Shown one piece after another: positions 44,556 through 52,331 of a DNA stretch of 64,000 nucleotides. The stretch comes from Desulfuromonas sp. (GTDB lineage Bacteria; Desulfobacterota; Desulfuromonadia; Desulfuromonadales; Geopsychrobacteraceae). The position numbers were made by a program, and so were the translations under genes. The DNA lies in the NCBI GenBank assembly GCA_002868865.1, contig PKUC01000055.1, positions 1 through 64,000 on the forward strand, in the 5' to 3' direction. The notes beneath the pieces are model-generated. The model saw only the letters and a list, made by a program, of their open reading frames with translations. It made no database searches and was not told the origin of the DNA. How positions within the stretch are numbered: position 1 is the first letter of the stretch; the number at the start of each line of letters is the position of its first letter.

Positions 44556-45143
44556 TTAACCCTTCTGCATATGCTCCAGCAGTTCTTTCCCGACCGATTC
44601 GGCATTGTCCAGCACCGCCGAATCGGCCTGAACACTTCCGGCCTCAAAAAAGCCCAGACCTGTCACCGAACCAACCACCTCAAGACCGATATCTCTCGAA
44701 AAATCGGTCAACAAGGACAGGGTATTACCCATCGCTGCAACTTCGGACTGTTCACAGACCGCAATCGTGATGCAAGCCTTTCCTGTTCTCATATACTTAC
44801 CGATCCACTGGTGTCGGCAAACCGGAAACTGGATCAGACTGTAGCATCGATCAACAAAACGCTTCATATCGGAGGTGACCGAATACCAGTAGGTCGGAGA
44901 GGCGAGGATGACCCCGTCTGCCGCATCTACCTTCTCGATCAGCTCCGAAAAACCATCTTTAATGACACAGTCCCAGCTTTTGCAGCAAGCCTCGCAACCG
45001 GTGCAGGCATCGATAGCATAGTCACCAAGAAAAACCGTTTCGGTTTGTGCCCCTGCCGCCAGAGCAGGCGTCAGGACAGAGCGGATCAAGGCATCGGTGT
45101 TCCCCTTCTTACGCCTGCTGCCATTTATTGCCAGAATGTTCAC
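44556..45143 (-). CDS. NAD(P)H-dependent iron-sulfur flavoprotein
   Basis: A 195-aa flavodoxin-fold FMN protein. The FMN phosphate loop is NGSRRKKGNT, followed by CTGCEACCKSWDC, a C-x2-C-x2-C-x5-C motif as in archaeal/bacterial iron-sulfur flavoproteins, and SPTYWYSVTSDMKRFVDR. It probably transfers electrons between FMN and a [4Fe-4S] cluster; the partner is unknown. The start is a GTG at 45143 with AGGAG 7 bases upstream; the track start adds 22 poorly conserved residues. Confidence 0.85.
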   Translation of the reverse strand: MNILAINGSRRKKGNTDALIRSVLTPALAAGAQTETVFLGDYAIDACTGCEACCKSWDCVIKDGFSELIEKVDAADGVILASPTYWYSVTSDMKRFVDRCYSLIQFPVCRHQWIGKYMRTGKACITIAVCEQSEVAAMGNTLSLLTDFSRDIGLEVVGSVTGLGFFEAGSVQADSAVLDNAESVGKELLEHMQKG

Positions 45144-45304
45144 ATCAAAGCTCCTGTCTCCCTTCTGTTCGCTACTCTGCAGATGCCGTTTCTCCCTGCT
45201 GAAACACACCAGTACGGTGGAGGCGTCTGCGCAAGAAACCTAACAGGTGGCAGAGTATTATTCAAGGACGCCGCCCTGAAAACAGTACTGCACCAGCCAT
45301 AAAG

Positions 45305-45346: not shown

Positions 45347-45423
45347 TGGCGACCCCGACAGGATTCGAACCTGTGACCTACTGCTTAGGAGGCAGTTGCT
45401 CTATCCAGCTGAGCTACGGGGTC
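45347..45423 (-). tRNA. tRNA-Arg (anticodon CCU)
   Basis: On the minus strand GACCCCG pairs with CGGGGTC in a 7-bp acceptor stem, and the 3' CCA is encoded. The D-arm AGCTCAGCTGGATAGAGC and the T-arm ACAGGTTCGAATCCTGT are canonical. The anticodon loop is CTCCTAA, giving CCU, which reads AGG. A 37-nt copy of its 5' half lies at 47568-47604 in the same orientation, which suggests it was an integration target. Confidence 0.97.
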
Positions 45424-45701
45424 ATTACTGGTATTGCTGACTTAACTTGTTGTTTTACCCAGCTGCTTACTTGTCTTGTTTGTGCCTATCGGTTATCCTT
45501 GCGAATTATCGTTTGTCAACAATAGCGCAAGCGAAATGGCTTACAGAACCCTATATCGGAATACAAAACCCGCGTGAAAGACGGTACGAGATTATGGAGG
45601 GGCAAGGCTTCTGCGTCAAGACCTTTCCCACCGGCGACGTTTCGCTCAGCAACCGTTTAGAAAAATGTGATTTGAATTCTAAACATCAAAGGAGGAAAGA
45701 A

Positions 45702-47198
45702 ATGAAAAACAATCTGATGATCTTCATTCTTGCCTTACTCACGCTCATGCTATCTGCATGTAGCAGCAGCGACAGTGACGACAAAAAAACAAGCGGTAGC
45801 ATTTCAGACCTCACAGAAGGCATCTACATCCTCACCGTTGACGGTGAATATGACAGCGTTGTTGAAGTCGCAATAATGGACGGTTTCATCATCGTAAACT
45901 ACTGCGATGAAGATGAAGACGTTTTTACCGTGAGCTCTTCAGGAACCGCCGTTGCGGACATTTCAGACCTTGAAGACGACTATTCAGGCAGCGCGACAGT
46001 CACCACCTTCACTTCCACTTCGTTTAGCGGAACATACTCCCAAACCGAAGGCGGCATAACCAACAGCGGTACATTCAAATTCGGCAAATCTACCGACAGC
46101 TCACTGGGAATCTGCGAAGACGGCAGTAGCTATGTCGGCGGCGGAGACTCCTCCAGCCCCGACACATCCGGAAGCACCACCGATCTGGACGAAGGGCTCT
46201 ACACAATCACGGTAGATGGCGAATTTGACGGCTACGCAGACGTTACAGCCACTGACGCTGCAATCACCGCCACCTACTGCGATGGCGATCAGGACGTGTT
46301 TGTTTTTACCTCGTCGGGAACCGCCATCTCCAACCTCTCCGAACCCGCGGAAGGAACCTCTGGTACCGCTACGGCAACCACCTTCTCTTCAACGTCCTTT
46401 AGCGGCCTCTACGTCTTCACCGAAGATAGCACAACTGGCAGTGGGACGTTCGTCTTCAGCAAAACGTCCGACAGTGAAGCCGAACTTTGCGGCGAAGGCG
46501 GCAGCGATGGCAGTTCGTCCAGCACCGATCCATCCGGAAACATTGCCGACTTCAGCGAAGGCGTTTATATCACTGACGAGGACTATGCCGGCTATTTCTC
46601 CATCGTTGATGGTGAAATGGTTTTTGAAAACTGCGACGGAGAAAAATCGTCCTGGGCGATTACCGACGGCATAGTCTCTAATTCCTGGTCAAGTGAAGAC
46701 GGCTCTGGCAGCACTGCACTCACAGGCTTCTCTTCTACCGAAATAACTGGCTATAGCAGCGGTATTGATGAGGGCTACTCTTACAGCTATCCCCTTGCAT
46801 TTTATAAATCTACCCAATCTTTTGCAGAAACCTGTCAGGATGTTGGCCAGATCTACGGTTCCGCATCGGACGCCACTGATGGTGTTTATACCCTTTCCAT
46901 GCCCGAAGAAGCGCTTCAAGTATTCGATCTCACCATAACCTCCGACAGCTTGATCTTTAATGACTGCAATGGTGAAGACGATATTTTCACCATCAACAGC
47001 TCTGGATCGGCAACGCTCGACATTTCGGACGAAGATGGGCCGGGACTTGTCGGCATCAATTATTATTCTGCAACCACTCTTAGTGGATTTTTGTCATTTG
47101 AAGACTACGAAACAGGCTACGAATTCTACGAATTTTTCGACTTGAACAAAATGACGATCAGCAAATCAGAAGCCTGCAGTCTCTATCCCCCAGAGTAA
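45702..47198 (+). CDS. lipoprotein of four cysteine-paired repeats
   Basis: I do not recognise a family. The 498-aa protein has a lipoprotein signal (FILALLTLMLSAC, lipidated C20), then four repeats beginning DLTEGIY (36), DLDEGLY (161), DFSEGVY (283) and DATDGVY (390). Each has two Cys at near-identical spacing: C68/C138, C193/C263, C311/C378 and C422/C492 (70, 70, 67, 70 residues). The first Cys of a pair is followed by an acidic loop (CDEDED, CDGDQD, CDGEKS, CNGEDD). Repeats 1-3 are joined by Ser/Gly/Asp-rich linkers. The pattern suggests beta-rich, disulfide-closed domains on the cell surface or in the periplasm. AAAGGAGG lies 6 bases before the ATG; the track start adds 85 unlikely codons. 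It is acidic, and unlike its neighbours. Confidence 0.85.
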   Translation: MKNNLMIFILALLTLMLSACSSSDSDDKKTSGSISDLTEGIYILTVDGEYDSVVEVAIMDGFIIVNYCDEDEDVFTVSSSGTAVADISDLEDDYSGSATVTTFTSTSFSGTYSQTEGGITNSGTFKFGKSTDSSLGICEDGSSYVGGGDSSSPDTSGSTTDLDEGLYTITVDGEFDGYADVTATDAAITATYCDGDQDVFVFTSSGTAISNLSEPAEGTSGTATATTFSSTSFSGLYVFTEDSTTGSGTFVFSKTSDSEAELCGEGGSDGSSSSTDPSGNIADFSEGVYITDEDYAGYFSIVDGEMVFENCDGEKSSWAITDGIVSNSWSSEDGSGSTALTGFSSTEITGYSSGIDEGYSYSYPLAFYKSTQSFAETCQDVGQIYGSASDATDGVYTLSMPEEALQVFDLTITSDSLIFNDCNGEDDIFTINSSGSATLDISDEDGPGLVGINYYSATTLSGFLSFEDYETGYEFYEFFDLNKMTISKSEACSLYPPE

Positions 47199-47215: not shown

Positions 47216-47254
47216 AAATTGGGTGGGCAGCGCAAAAAGCTGCCCACCCAATTT
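47216..47254 (+). terminator. intrinsic terminator after the repeat lipoprotein
   Basis: A 16-bp perfect stem (AAATTGGGTGGGCAGC / GCTGCCCACCCAATTT) around a 7-base GCAAAAA loop, 18 bases past the stop. Confidence 0.9.
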
Positions 47255-47310
47255 CGCCGCAACGTAAAACAGCAGTGGGACTCATCCGATAAACAACTCA
47301 CCGACATAAA

Positions 47311-47436
47311 ACCCGCATCGCCCGCTTGCTCGCCGATGCCACACCGGCCACCGAACAAGCCCGCTATCCGAATGTCCTGTTGGCGATCCTGTTCACCAGC
47401 CTCATCTGCATCATGCTGCCATTCGACTCAAGGTAG
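47311..47436 (+). pseudogene. 3' remnant of a membrane-protein gene
   Basis: An in-frame stretch of 41 codons ends in TAG and is followed at once by a strong terminator. It encodes a hydrophobic helix (NVLLAILFTSLICIMLPF) with a short charged tail, like the last helix of a membrane protein. There is no start codon or SD; a TAA lies seven codons upstream. The family is not recognisable. Confidence 0.35.
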
Positions 47437-47443
47437 TGGACAC

Positions 47444-47480
47444 AAAAAAGCGGCCCCAGATAACCTGGAGCCGCTTTTTA
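47444..47480 (+). terminator. intrinsic terminator after the gene remnant
   Basis: A stem AAAAAGCGGC-x-CCAG / CTGG-x-GCCGCTTTTT with one mismatch, a short loop and a T-rich tail. Confidence 0.85.
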
Positions 47481-47567
47481 TATGCATCCCATGTCGCAAG
47501 CCGACATTTTTTTCTAAAAACCAAACAGCCTAAAATCGTTTAAATTACGCAATCAAGAGCCATGTTA

Positions 47568-47604
47568 AGGAGGCAGCTGCTCTATCCAGTTGAGCTACGG
47601 GGTC
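47568..47604 (-). pseudogene. tRNA-Arg(CCU) 5'-half fragment, att-like
   Basis: 37 bases match the first half of the tRNA at 45347-45423 (35 of 37 identical), from the 5' end through anticodon CCU, where homology stops. It lacks the 3' half, so it cannot make a tRNA. It is best read as one end of an old integration. Confidence 0.75.
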
Positions 47605-47703
47605 AAATCGGTATTTTCAACGAGAGGGATATCAATGTTTCAATGGCATTAGGTCGGAGCATGCCTTTCGTTATGCCTTGCTTCCTAAGACCCATGTCAT
47701 TTA

Positions 47704-47889
47704 TCAACTCAACGGCGGCATCTTTTCAATCAATATCGAGGTCCAGTAGCTCAGCGCTGCAGCGACCCCGAGAAAAAACAATCCCATCATCGCACAAACC
47801 AGTGCGTGCCGCTTGCGGTTCCGACGCAACCCCAGATACGAAATAATCAGACAGAGTATCCCAAGGGGGATAAAGAGAATAATGATCAT
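47704..47889 (-). CDS. small two-helix membrane protein, 61 aa
   Basis: A possible gene directly after apt. The 61-aa product has two hydrophobic helices (IIILFIPLGILCLIISYLGL and LVCAMMGLFFLGVAAALSYW) separated by a basic loop (RRNRKRH), so a small inner-membrane protein is plausible. No clear SD precedes the ATG. It lies outside the islet, 67 bases from apt on the same strand. No family recognised. Confidence 0.5.
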   Translation of the reverse strand: MIIILFIPLGILCLIISYLGLRRNRKRHALVCAMMGLFFLGVAAALSYWTSILIEKMPPLS

Positions 47890-48490: not shown

Positions 48491-49486
48491 TTATGGTTCT
48501 GTACTTTCACCCGTCCCGCGGGCGACGGTCTCTTCTTGAATCTGTCGCAGCTTCGCCAGACTTTTGGCTTCGATCTGCCGGATCCGCTCGCGGGTCACCC
48601 CAAACCGTTGTCCAATGGTATCCAGCGTCTGCGGCTCACGATCATCCAGCCCAAACCGCAGGACCAGAATCTCCCGTTCATTGTCGGTCAATCCTTCCAG
48701 CCAGTCTGAAACATGGCCATAACGATCCAGATCCTCTATCAGGGTACTGGGATCGATACTGTTCTTGTCTTCGATGGTATCGATCAGGCTGTAATCACTA
48801 TTTTCACCCATAGGGTGTTCAATCGAGTAGGTTTTTTTCAGCAGCACCGACATCCGGCTGACATACGCCGGAGTTGCGCCCATAGCGTCTGCAATCTCCT
48901 CGAGGGTTGGTTCACGCTTGAGGCGCTGCAGAAGTTCACGACTGATCTTGACCAGCTTATTGATATCGTCCGCCACATGGACCGGAAGACGGATAGTGCG
49001 GCTCTGATTGACAAGGGCGCGTTCGATCGATTGACGGACCCACCAGGTTGCATAGGTGGAAAAACGACAGCCCTTACTGACCTTGAACCGCTCGACAGCT
49101 TTGATCAGGCCCATATTGCCCTCTTCGATCAGATCGAGAAACGGCAAACCCCGATTCATGTACCGTTTGGAAATCTTCACCACGAGACGCAGATTGGATT
49201 CGATCATCCGGTCCCGGGCGGCCATATCGCCTTTGGCGATCTGGCCTGCCAATTCCCGTTCTTCAGCGGCCGTCAGCAGCGTACTCTTTTGAATCTCCTT
49301 GAGATACAGCTTGATCGCATCGGCAGACGCACCTTCATCTTCGCTGGCGCGGCTTTTCTCACTCCGTGACGAGTGGCTCTTGCTCGAAGGGACATCCCCA
49401 CCAGGGTGTGCAGCCATCCCCCCTGCCGACTCCAGCTCTTCGTCAGGAGAGCGTCTTTGTTCAAAGTCTGAAAACAGATCATCCAT
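48491..49486 (-). CDS. rpoS: RNA polymerase sigma factor RpoS
   Basis: The general-stress and stationary-phase sigma factor. The 331-aa protein has an acidic N-terminus, region 1.2 ([12 protein letters not shown]), region 2 with the -10 recognition helix ([18 protein letters not shown]), region 3 and region 4.2 ([28 protein letters not shown]). The short N-terminus and the neighbourhood surE-pcm-nlpD-rpoS identify RpoS rather than RpoD. A CATAAT box just past the nlpD stop may be part of a promoter, though its -35 is poor. Confidence 0.93.
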
Positions 49487-49553
49487 AAAAACTACCCCTT
49501 CCGTGAAACAGTCAACAGGCTACTCATACCGCAGTCTAGAAGTGACTACAGAA

Positions 49554-50315
49554 TTATGGCAAGTATAAAATCGGGTTAACCGCCTGTTTCTGGCGGCGAA
49601 CCTCAAAATGCAGGCGAGGCACCCCCCCGCCGGGAGCATTACCCGACAGGGCAATCTTTTCTCCACCGCTGACAAACTCGCCCTGCTGAACAAGGTTGCG
49701 GGTATTAAAGCCGTAGACGGTGTATAAATCGTTTTCATGCTGGAGGATAATCAGGTGGCCGTACCCCTTCACGCCATCACCGCTGTAGATCACCTGGCCA
49801 GCCGCAGCGGCCTTAACCGCTGAGTTGTGCGGCGCGGCAATCTCGATCCCCTTCCCTCCACTCTTTTCCGATGCCTTGAAAGCACTCAAAAGTTTACCGC
49901 GCAGGGGCCACGCCAAGGTCCCTTTTTTTGCCGCACTGACAGGCCCCTTCGACGGGGCTGAGATCTTTGCAGGAGGTTTATTTTTAACGGCTGGCCGGAC
50001 AGCCTTCGGCGCTGTAGGCGGGTTAACGGCCGATTTTGGAATGCGCCGGGGCTTGACCGCAGCGACCCGCTTGACCGATGTCGCTCCGGGGATGTAAAGG
50101 CGCGTTCCGCTCAGCAGGTCTTTTGGATCAGCGATCCCATTGACCCGCGCCAGATAAATTTCGTCAACACCGTAGGCACGACTGATCCGATAGAGGGTCT
50201 GTCCCTCCTTCACCTGATGATAGACCCCCTGCTGTGCACAGGCTAACAGCGCCAGCAGAACTACGGTCACAAGCAGAGATGCAGATCTTCGTTTAAAGCG
50301 TGACACGCTTATCAT
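49554..50315 (-). CDS. nlpD: NlpD-like LysM/M23 lipoprotein, degenerate peptidase
   Basis: A 253-aa lipoprotein: signal and lipobox (LLALLAC), LysM domain (YHQVKEGQTLYRISRAYGVDEIYLARVNGI), basic Pro-rich linker, and a C-terminal M23/LytM domain. In the M23 domain the usual YAHL reads YGFN, while LHFEVR is kept. Loss of a metal ligand fits an amidase activator like E. coli NlpD/EnvC rather than an active peptidase. It may activate the Amidase_3 enzyme at 9858 (inference). It precedes rpoS as in enterobacteria. Confidence 0.9.
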   Translation of the reverse strand: MISVSRFKRRSASLLVTVVLLALLACAQQGVYHQVKEGQTLYRISRAYGVDEIYLARVNGIADPKDLLSGTRLYIPGATSVKRVAAVKPRRIPKSAVNPPTAPKAVRPAVKNKPPAKISAPSKGPVSAAKKGTLAWPLRGKLLSAFKASEKSGGKGIEIAAPHNSAVKAAAAGQVIYSGDGVKGYGHLIILQHENDLYTVYGFNTRNLVQQGEFVSGGEKIALSGNAPGGGVPRLHFEVRRQKQAVNPILYLP

Positions 50316-50323
50316 CCCTCTAC

Positions 50324-50917
50324 CTACAAAAAATACTCGATAACGACAAAACCACCCACCAGCAGCAGTAAAAACAGGATGGTGAGCAGATTAAAGTATT
50401 TATCGATCATCGTCTTGGCCAGAGAACCGAAACGGTGCAGCAACCAGGCCACGAGCAGAAAACGCAACCCGCGACTGAGGCAGGAGGCGATAACGAACAG
50501 AGGAAAATCGAGATTGAAAACCCCCGCCGATACAGTGAAAATCTTGTAGGGGATGGGGGTGAAACCGGCCGCAAAAATGGCCAGAAAATCGTGACGGACA
50601 AACTGCTCACGGACCGTCTGAAAGTGGGCTTCGCTGAATCCCGGAACATATTGAAAAAAGATCGGCTCCAGACTCCCCCACAGCGTCAGCCCCAGTGCAT
50701 ACCCGGCAGCACCGCCGATCACCGATCCGGCGCAGGCGATCAGCGCATAACGGTAAGACCGGGCGGGCAGGGCCAGGCAGAGCGCGATCAGTAAAACATC
50801 CGGCGGCACCGGAAAAAAACTGGCTTCAGCAAAAGCGAGCAGAAACAGTGCAGGGCCGCCATAGGGTGTCTCAGCCCAGGAAAGCACCCAGTCGTAGAGT
50901 TTTCTGAACGCCTTCAT
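50324..50917 (-). CDS. DedA/YqaA-family membrane protein (VTT domain)
   Basis: A 197-aa polytopic protein of the SNARE-associated/VTT type. Markers are FAEASFFPVPPDVLLIALCLA, the AGSVIGGAAGYALG helix and FTPIPYKIFTVSAGVF, with about five helices. Such proteins are thought to move lipids across the membrane or maintain envelope energetics. Here it is inserted between pcm and nlpD in an otherwise conserved surE-pcm-nlpD-rpoS order. Its start overlaps the pcm stop by 4 bases. Confidence 0.9.
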   Translation of the reverse strand: MKAFRKLYDWVLSWAETPYGGPALFLLAFAEASFFPVPPDVLLIALCLALPARSYRYALIACAGSVIGGAAGYALGLTLWGSLEPIFFQYVPGFSEAHFQTVREQFVRHDFLAIFAAGFTPIPYKIFTVSAGVFNLDFPLFVIASCLSRGLRFLLVAWLLHRFGSLAKTMIDKYFNLLTILFLLLLVGGFVVIEYFL

Positions 50918-51573
50918 CCCTCCTCACAGTCGGAGTTCCAGCCCTGTTCGCCGATCAATGGAACAAACCGGCACGACATCAGGCGCTGTTCATCAAAATC
51001 GTCCTCGGCGGTCCTCACCACGCGGATCAACTCCTGACTATCTCTGCCTCCGACGGGCATCACCAGTGTCCCTCCGATTTCCAGCTGCTCGAGATAATCG
51101 CGCGGCACCTCTGGTGCTCCGGCAGCGACCAAGATCGCATCAAACGGGGCCTGTTCCTTCCAGCCGATGGTGCCGTCACCGATCTTGAGATTCACGTTGG
51201 TCGCCCGGCACTTGTCGAGGATCCGTCTGGCCCGACTGGCAAGTGAAGAAATCCGCTCGATACTGTAAATCCGCCGTGCAAGCTGCGCCAGCACCGCGGT
51301 CTGGTAACCCGAACCGGCACCGATTTCAAGAACACGCTCATCCCCTTTAAGGTGCAGAGCCGAGGTCATGGCGGCAACCATAAAGGGCTGGGAAATAGTC
51401 TGCTTTTCGCCAATCGGCAGAGACCCGTCGGCGTAGGCATGCCCCCACAACGCCTCATCAACAAACAGGTGCCGCGGAACCTTGAGCATGGCGTCGATCA
51501 CCCGTTGATCGTCCACCCCACGGGCGACAATCTGCGTCTCGACCATCCGGCGACGCGCAATGGTAAAATCCAT
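50914..51573 (-). CDS. pcm: protein-L-isoaspartate O-methyltransferase
   Basis: Repairs isoaspartyl damage in aged proteins using SAM. The 219-aa protein has RRRMVETQI, PRHLFVDEALWGHAYADGSLPIG, QTISQPFMVAAMTSAL and the SAM motif VLEIGAGSGYQTAVLAQLA. The track start runs into surE; the ATG at 51573, 12 bases after the surE stop, gives the normal length. It belongs to the surE-pcm-rpoS stress set. Confidence 0.95.
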   Translation of the reverse strand: MDFTIARRRMVETQIVARGVDDQRVIDAMLKVPRHLFVDEALWGHAYADGSLPIGEKQTISQPFMVAAMTSALHLKGDERVLEIGAGSGYQTAVLAQLARRIYSIERISSLASRARRILDKCRATNVNLKIGDGTIGWKEQAPFDAILVAAGAPEVPRDYLEQLEIGGTLVMPVGGRDSQELIRVVRTAEDDFDEQRLMSCRFVPLIGEQGWNSDCEEG

Positions 51574-51584
51574 CAATAATCCAT

Positions 51585-52331
51585 CTATGTCAGTGGAATC
51601 TGCCAATCGGACAAGTCCTGCAAGGACGAGTCGTTTGTCAGGTTTGTGTGCAGTGGCGTGACTGAAATGTAACCCTCGTGGACCGCATTGCAATCACTGC
51701 CGGGGATATCTTCAAAACCGAGGTCCCCGCCACCTATCCAGTAGTAGGAACGCCCTCTGGGATCTTCCTTGCGGGTGACGACATCGCCGTAGCGCCTCTT
51801 CCCCTGTCGGGTCAGGCGCATGCCCCGAACCTTTTGCGCCGGAACATTAACATTGAGGAAGGTCTCTTCGGGCAGGCCATTATCGAGCAGATGTGCCGCC
51901 AGATGTCGAGAGAATCTGGCCGCCAGGGGCAGATTCTTGCCCTGATGTGCGGTATCATCCAGCGACACCGCGAACGCTGGGACACCCATCAGGGTTGCTT
52001 CCATGGCTGCGCAGACCGTACCGGAATAGGTAATATCATCTCCCAGATTGGCCCCGCGGTTGATCCCTGAAATGACAAGGTCGGGCATTTCTCTGAGCAA
52101 ACCGTGGATGCCGAGGTTGACGCAATCGGTCGGCGTGCCATCGACGGCAAACAGGTCGGTGCGCACCTCTTCAGCGCGCAGCGGTGACTCCAGGGTAAGG
52201 GCGTGAGCAACGGCGCTGCGGTTGCGATCTGGAGCGACAATCACAACCCGGCCGAAATCCTGAAAAGCATCTGCCAATGCTTTCAGGCCCGGCGACATCA
52301 CCCCGTCATCGTTGGTGAGAAGGATCAGCAT
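51585..52331 (-). CDS. surE: 5'/3'-nucleotidase SurE
   Basis: A metal-dependent nucleotidase and exopolyphosphatase important in stationary phase. The 248-aa protein has the metal site LTNDDGVMSPGL, the FAVDGTPTDCVNLGI segment and SGINRGANLGDDITYSGTVCAAMEA. Length is normal. It is followed by pcm and preceded by a MerR-type regulator gene by 14 bases. Confidence 0.97.
   Translation of the reverse strand: MLILLTNDDGVMSPGLKALADAFQDFGRVVIVAPDRNRSAVAHALTLESPLRAEEVRTDLFAVDGTPTDCVNLGIHGLLREMPDLVISGINRGANLGDDITYSGTVCAAMEATLMGVPAFAVSLDDTAHQGKNLPLAARFSRHLAAHLLDNGLPEETFLNVNVPAQKVRGMRLTRQGKRRYGDVVTRKEDPRGRSYYWIGGGDLGFEDIPGSDCNAVHEGYISVTPLHTNLTNDSSLQDLSDWQIPLT

Follow-up and report, generated by a model that had tools for sequence, protein, structure and literature searches.

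What is the protein encoded by the 498-aa frame that lies next to a tRNA-Arg gene of Desulfuromonas sp., and what might it do for the cell? In the window, that is, the whole stretch of 64,000 nucleotides of contig PKUC01000055.1 that was analysed, this frame specifies a putative lipoprotein made of four repeated modules. The answer that we favour, and consider probable though far from assured, is a lipid-anchored protein in which four slim calycin barrels stand in tandem, and for which multivalent capture would be the most likely job. The parts of the gene, as read from the sequence and, for modules and linkers, from the module alignment, are the following.

45690..45695, plus strand: Shine-Dalgarno AGGAGG, 6 nt ahead of the ATG at 45702
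45702..47198, plus strand: four-module lipoprotein gene (498 aa, mature mass ~50 kDa, pI ~4.05)
45702..45761, plus strand: signal peptide and lipobox, MKNNLMIFILALLTLMLSAC, with a weak LPAM_1 match at residues 7-21
45762..45794, plus strand: acidic Ser/Asp-rich tether, SSSDSDDKKTS
45795..46127, plus strand: module 1, with G40-x-Y42, K129 and the Cys pair C68/C138 (AF2 model)
46128..46169, plus strand: linker between modules 1 and 2, Gly/Ser/Asp-rich
46170..46505, plus strand: module 2, with the Cys pair C193/C263 and K254
46506..46535, plus strand: linker between modules 2 and 3, Ser/Asp-rich
46536..46844, plus strand: module 3, with the Cys pair C311/C378, K369 and a weakened acidic loop (CDGEKS)
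46857..47195, plus strand: module 4, with the Cys pair C422/C492 and K483; the protein ends here
47216..47254, plus strand: 16-bp hairpin, probable terminator (-30.8 kcal/mol, z -7.5)

The frame is open from 45702 to 47195 and ends with the stop codon at 47196-47198. A longer version of 583 aa, beginning at an upstream TTG, was discarded, that start having no support whereas the ATG at 45702 is preceded by AGGAGG. At the amino terminus the lipobox consensus L-S-A-C of a lipoprotein signal is present, the LPAM_1 match to the signal peptide falling below the cut-off. The lipid-anchor residue Cys20 (codon 45759-45761) is followed by Ser at position +2, and because of this Ser the +2 rule leads one to expect sorting to the outer membrane. 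The GC3 of the gene (0.56) is slightly under that of most of its neighbours (0.59-0.71), thrC being left out of the comparison. As for the hairpin past the stop, a pattern scan places it on the minus strand, and its plus-strand tail is merely AATTT-like.

A sequence-only reading of this DNA had described a lipoprotein of four repeats, each holding a cysteine pair at fixed spacing, and both parts of that description are borne out. Four homologous modules of ~110 aa follow the lipobox LSAC; the cysteines are located at positions 20, 68, 138, 193, 263, 311, 378, 422 and 492, so that the pairs are 70, 70, 67 and 70 residues apart, and all eight non-anchor Cys fall in two invariant columns. The homology of the four modules is beyond doubt. 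All six pairwise module scores are above every one of 500 shuffles (z 9.4 to 32.1), and when Cys is masked little is lost, the scores staying well over the shuffle means. Modules 1 and 2 share ~51% identity and the remaining pairs 29-34%, with 12 columns invariant throughout (in module-1 numbering G1, D5, G9, Y11, C37, S57, G65, T75, G79, K98, S102 and C107). Had eight Cys been dropped at random on the aligned modules, they would fill exactly two full columns with p ~1.6e-13, and a Lys would stand at one place in all four modules with a probability of ~2e-6, both figures being too strong because the modules share descent. The K98 column is nevertheless notable because Lys is scarce in the protein (ten residues) and Arg is missing, as is His. 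Nucleotide differences are more frequent at third codon positions than at the other two in every module pair (modules 1 and 2 differ at positions 1, 2 and 3 in 0.27, 0.30 and 0.53 of codons), and this excess points to constraint acting at the protein level after the modules were duplicated.

Which fold could such a module adopt? AlphaFold2 (AF2) was run on module 1 with the four modules themselves as alignment, i.e. with only four paralogous rows, and gave a model with a mean pLDDT of 87.9 and a pTM of 0.80. In this model a short helix, assigned by DSSP to residues 3-5 directly ahead of strand A, is followed by an eight-strand meander in sequence order (strands 9-15, 18-28, 31-35, 41-46, 52-55, 63-72, 76-85 and 88-98). 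No helix appears in it beyond strand 8, i.e. there is no lipocalin-type C-terminal helix, and its least confident part is residues 101-110, which include Cys107 (mean pLDDT 69). The repeated beta domain that had been suspected from the letters agrees well with this model of one repeat. For module 1 the eight-strand fold is thus a confident prediction, and it would presumably extend to modules 2-4. A full-length AF2 run on the single sequence, with no alignment, reached a pLDDT of 37 and was unusable.

When the module 1 model was compared with the PDB by Foldseek, no match was obtained at E <= 0.001, the best ones having E 0.02-0.2, TMq up to 0.57 and rmsd ~5 A, so that the likeness, at TM ~0.5, is one of fold class and not of family. 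Foldseek probabilities were mostly 0.9-1.0 among the top 50, which are mainly lipocalins and include in addition avidins, de novo small barrels, fHbp, LpqH and Tp0751; bovine odorant-binding protein, mouse urinary protein, siderocalin, agroavidin, core-bradavidin and meningococcal fHbp are among the named matches. Against the viral models of BFVD no match was significant, and the similarly weak ones found there include an avidin-family protein. Judged from these models, a slim calycin barrel is the most likely fold of the module, which as a fold is probably not new, and the Foldseek matches (E >= 0.02) suggest that the barrel of module 1 may be closed.

The invariant residues bear on the same assignment. 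Calycin barrels have a capping 3-10 helix and a latch between a Trp of the first strand and a Lys or Arg of the last one (PMC2954199); the corresponding motif is Gly-X-Trp/Arg, and a Gly-X-Tyr/Lys variant of it has been named for the Pab87 domain (PMC3367933). In the modules of our lipoprotein, the invariant Gly9-X-Tyr11 is placed at the start of strand 1, shortly after the short helix, and strand 8 ends with the invariant Lys98. This arrangement would fit kinship with the calycins and a putative Tyr-Lys latch in each module; a point against it is that Tyr occupies the position of the classical calycin Trp. With regard to the avidins, the Trp residues of the biotin site are lacking, since the lipoprotein has only two Trp and both belong to module 3.

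However, the top Foldseek E-value is that of LpqH from M. tuberculosis (E 0.02, TM 0.45). The modules could accordingly be small non-calycin beta domains, LpqH-like or another type of lipoprotein sandwich, which would resemble lipocalins no more than any meander of eight strands does and whose invariant Gly, Tyr and Lys would be chance survivors, and such a reading would be in line with the weakness of all the Foldseek matches and with the fact that no calycin family gave a sequence-profile match. We regard it as unlikely, though worth keeping in mind, since lipocalins and avidins make up most of the top 50 and many of them exceed LpqH in TM, and since G-x-Y and K are found at the strand A and strand H places that the calycin signature predicts, with the short helix before strand A.

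If the modules are slim calycin barrels, how would the cysteine pair fit in them? In the model of module 1, C37 falls within the loop that joins strands 3 and 4, and C107 within the tail past strand 8. In beta-lactoglobulin, Cys66 sits in the CD loop. Its bond is Cys66-Cys160 (PMC7464270), and a bond from the strand-3/4 loop to the C-terminal tail of the module would have the same topology. The modules are probably disulfide-closed, and the bond would be formed in the periplasm.

The first Cys is followed by an acidic loop, for which the sequence-only reading had listed CDEDED, CDGDQD, CDGEKS and CNGEDD and had considered a metal. The four loops are as listed, but the acidic positions are lost in module 3, and metal binding fared badly, given that modules 3 and 4 lack a complete DxDxD-like loop, which modules 1 and 2 have, that no EF-type loop is found and that the protein has no His. 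A Ca2+ ion held in this loop could in principle fix the fold together with the disulfide: CDEDED and CDGDQD do resemble DxDxD and the whole lipoprotein is very acidic. Nevertheless, the liganding positions vary in modules 3 and 4 whereas Cys, Tyr and Lys are kept, the 12-residue loop of EF type (DxDxDG plus an acidic position 12) is absent, and AF2 draws the acidic stretch as a short turn between strands 3 and 4, all of which makes Ca2+ binding quite improbable.

Does the lipoprotein have relatives? That no family could be recognised had been noted before, and this stands at the sequence level and less so at the level of the fold, where the modules look calycin-like with Gly-X-Tyr/Lys. Pfam and NCBIfam searches yielded no family above cut-off, the lipocalin models of both (PF00061 and relatives) not being listed even at E <= 10, and a PHROG search gave no convincing match. 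The PDB sequence search with the lipoprotein returned compositional or marginal matches only, and a profile of the four modules found nothing significant among PDB sequences. Several candidates were rejected along the way. The scores of the designed 'Cake' propellers are summed over identical blades, the strongest of them lacking any single passing stretch, and the match to proteasome beta is marginal (E 0.01) and spans a linker; both were gone when the module profile was used. Por_Secre_tail and DUF2844 are below their cut-offs and located over the tether and the first strands.

The genome itself contains no second copy of the gene, and no relative came up when 44 genomes from the family, 136 from the order and 277 from the class were searched. 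A phylum-level sample of 395 genomes gave weak matches only. The best two of six proved on reading to be unrelated, one being a multihaem cytochrome-like protein (L006) and the other overlapping a chemoreceptor-like frame (L007), and the remaining four have E 0.05-0.07. When GTDB contigs and IMG/VR were searched by pattern, neither the whole protein nor the alignments of four and of two modules found anything, and tblastn of phages and plasmids detected no relative. These searches rely on sampled genomes or on short near-exact peptides, and a distant relative may exist elsewhere. By sequence, the lipoprotein gene is an orphan that was met in a single one of the genomes searched, and as a sequence family it is new within the scope of all these searches. 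Its placement also illustrates how internal repeats, aligned with one another, can serve to assign an orphan gene to a fold class.

How does a string of such modules compare with known systems? Close in kind are YxeF of B. subtilis and the Blc-type lipoproteins, likewise secreted lipoproteins with an eight-strand calycin barrel, YxeF being also 'slim' and without a C-terminal helix (PMC3367933). They have, however, one barrel, no disulfide and Gly-X-Trp/Arg, whereas four modules, Cys pairs and Gly-X-Tyr/Lys are present here, and they show no sequence match to the four-module lipoprotein. The C-terminal domain of Pab87, a protease of Pyrococcus abyssi, shares the barrel-only calycin-like form and Gly-X-Tyr/Lys (PMC3367933), but it is part of a self-compartmentalising protease, where it is tied to oligomerisation, and not of a lipoprotein array. 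Tp0751 of Treponema pallidum, at Foldseek rank 35, is again a lipoprotein with a compact eight-strand non-canonical lipocalin barrel (PMC5040251); it is a single barrel with 11% identity and a reported binding to host matrix. More than one calycin-like barrel per protein is also seen in NE1406 of DUF2006 (PF09410), with the signature in one of them (PMC2954199), but its two barrels are large and orthogonally packed, the N-terminal one having 13 strands, in contrast with the string of small Cys-paired modules described here. Beta-lactoglobulin, MUP and the odorant-binding proteins have the same strand order, and in several of them a disulfide links the CD region with the C-terminus. Vertebrate lipocalins are among the best Foldseek TM values to module 1 (~0.57); unlike the modules, they are single domains of 150-180 aa with a C-terminal helix and the Trp/Arg signature. 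Finally, LpqH is a small all-beta lipoprotein domain of the same length as a module, with the best E-value noted above, but its rmsd to module 1 is 5 A and there is no sequence match. The bacterial lipocalin-type lipoproteins that we found described have one barrel each, and a narrow phrase search of the literature found no multi-domain lipocalin array like this one. Four tandem barrels on one lipoprotein appear to be a new architectural variant and, if the models are right, the architecture of a four-barrel array with Gly-X-Tyr/Lys and one Cys pair per barrel would be new.

Putting these elements together, the calycin reading can be phrased as a mechanism. A very acidic lipid-anchored protein, probably located in the outer membrane, would carry four 'slim' calycin (lipocalin/avidin-type) beta-barrels strung on flexible Ser/Gly/Asp linkers, the four having arisen by duplication followed by divergence. 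In each of them the short helix would precede and cap the closed end of the barrel, a latch would join two invariant residues, the Tyr of Gly-X-Tyr where strand A begins and the Lys where strand H ends, and, after export, a disulfide would tie the strand 3-4 loop to the C-terminal tail. Small molecules are frequent ligands of the lipocalin fold. Judging by nothing more than fold and architecture, the barrels may be given a binding role, in which multivalent capture would take place just outside the membrane, either of a small ligand in the barrel mouths or of a polymer or surface through the loops.

A variant of this explanation takes the array for a surface adhesin or recognition protein, whose targets would be cells, minerals, polysaccharide or protein, instead of a small-molecule carrier. 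We give it a substantial but lesser chance. The tandem array, the flexible linkers, the acidic tether, the mobile-islet location and the orphan status are all compatible with it, and so is the presence among the structural matches of fHbp and of Tp0751, for which a role in adhesion is reported (PMC5040251); on the other hand, the islet contains neither a surface-export partner nor an adhesin apparatus, and surface exposure is only putative. It is rather doubtful that the gene represents a new tandem mini-lipocalin family, in which a mobile orphan lipoprotein at the surface would have four barrels, each locked by a disulfide and with mouths diverged to take different ligands, and would thus be a multi-pocket bacterial binder on one tether.

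How did such a gene come to lie beside a tRNA? The gene had been called the main cargo of a tRNA-Arg islet, and the boundaries listed here confirm it.

45347..45423, minus strand: intact tRNA-Arg (CCT), one edge of the islet
45382..45424, no strand assigned: direct repeat copy 1, 5′ half of the intact tRNA-Arg, islet boundary
47563..47605, no strand assigned: direct repeat copy 2, displaced 5′ half of tRNA-Arg, islet boundary, 91% identical

The two 43-bp repeats, in which the duplicated 5′ half reaches up to the anticodon loop, delimit an islet of 2.18 kb, most of which is filled by the lipoprotein gene. Five relatives (G001, of the same genus, G009, G021, G025 and G038) have an empty site: in them an rpoS-type sigma gene, apt and tRNA-Arg are consecutive, with ~40-110 bp between apt and the tRNA. 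Because this gap is ~2.5 kb here, the islet is an insertion, and its position at the 5′ side of the tRNA is opposite to the 3′-end pattern that is usual; recombination with the 5′ region of tRNAs is considerably less frequent (PMC6563490). No integrase is left within the islet.

This reduced state, together with the restriction of the gene to one genome and its lack of relatives, could mean that the orphan is stranded, unexpressed or decaying and has no function. We hold this to be very improbable, given that the 498-aa frame is intact, with a ribosome site ahead of it and a hairpin past the stop, that the excess of third-position differences is seen between modules and that all the structural-looking invariants have been retained. 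It could still be an orphan gene under weak constraint.

The islet and its surroundings offer some further observations. Downstream of the gene, an open stretch (47293-47436) was considered as transposase scrap and rejected, as it has no Pfam match; it is followed by a second strong hairpin with a T-run (47438-47485, z -6.0). Between apt and the tRNA remnant, a small hydrophobic ORF of 61 aa is found on the minus strand (47704-47889), with a sub-threshold MerC match and only short, marginal nucleotide relatives, and the stretch that carries it is missing at that place in the relatives. On the other side of the tRNA, between it and a thioesterase gene, lies a minus-strand gene for an NADPH-dependent FMN reductase (44556-45209; PF03358, E 1.8e-22), at a place where G001 has no gene. 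It contains a compact Cys cluster, CTGCEACC, like those of iron-sulfur flavoproteins. Upstream of the tRNA, the minus strand from 48491 to 52331 carries surE, pcm, a DedA-like gene, an NlpD-like LysM/M23 gene, the rpoS-type sigma gene and apt, named by inspection of their translations.
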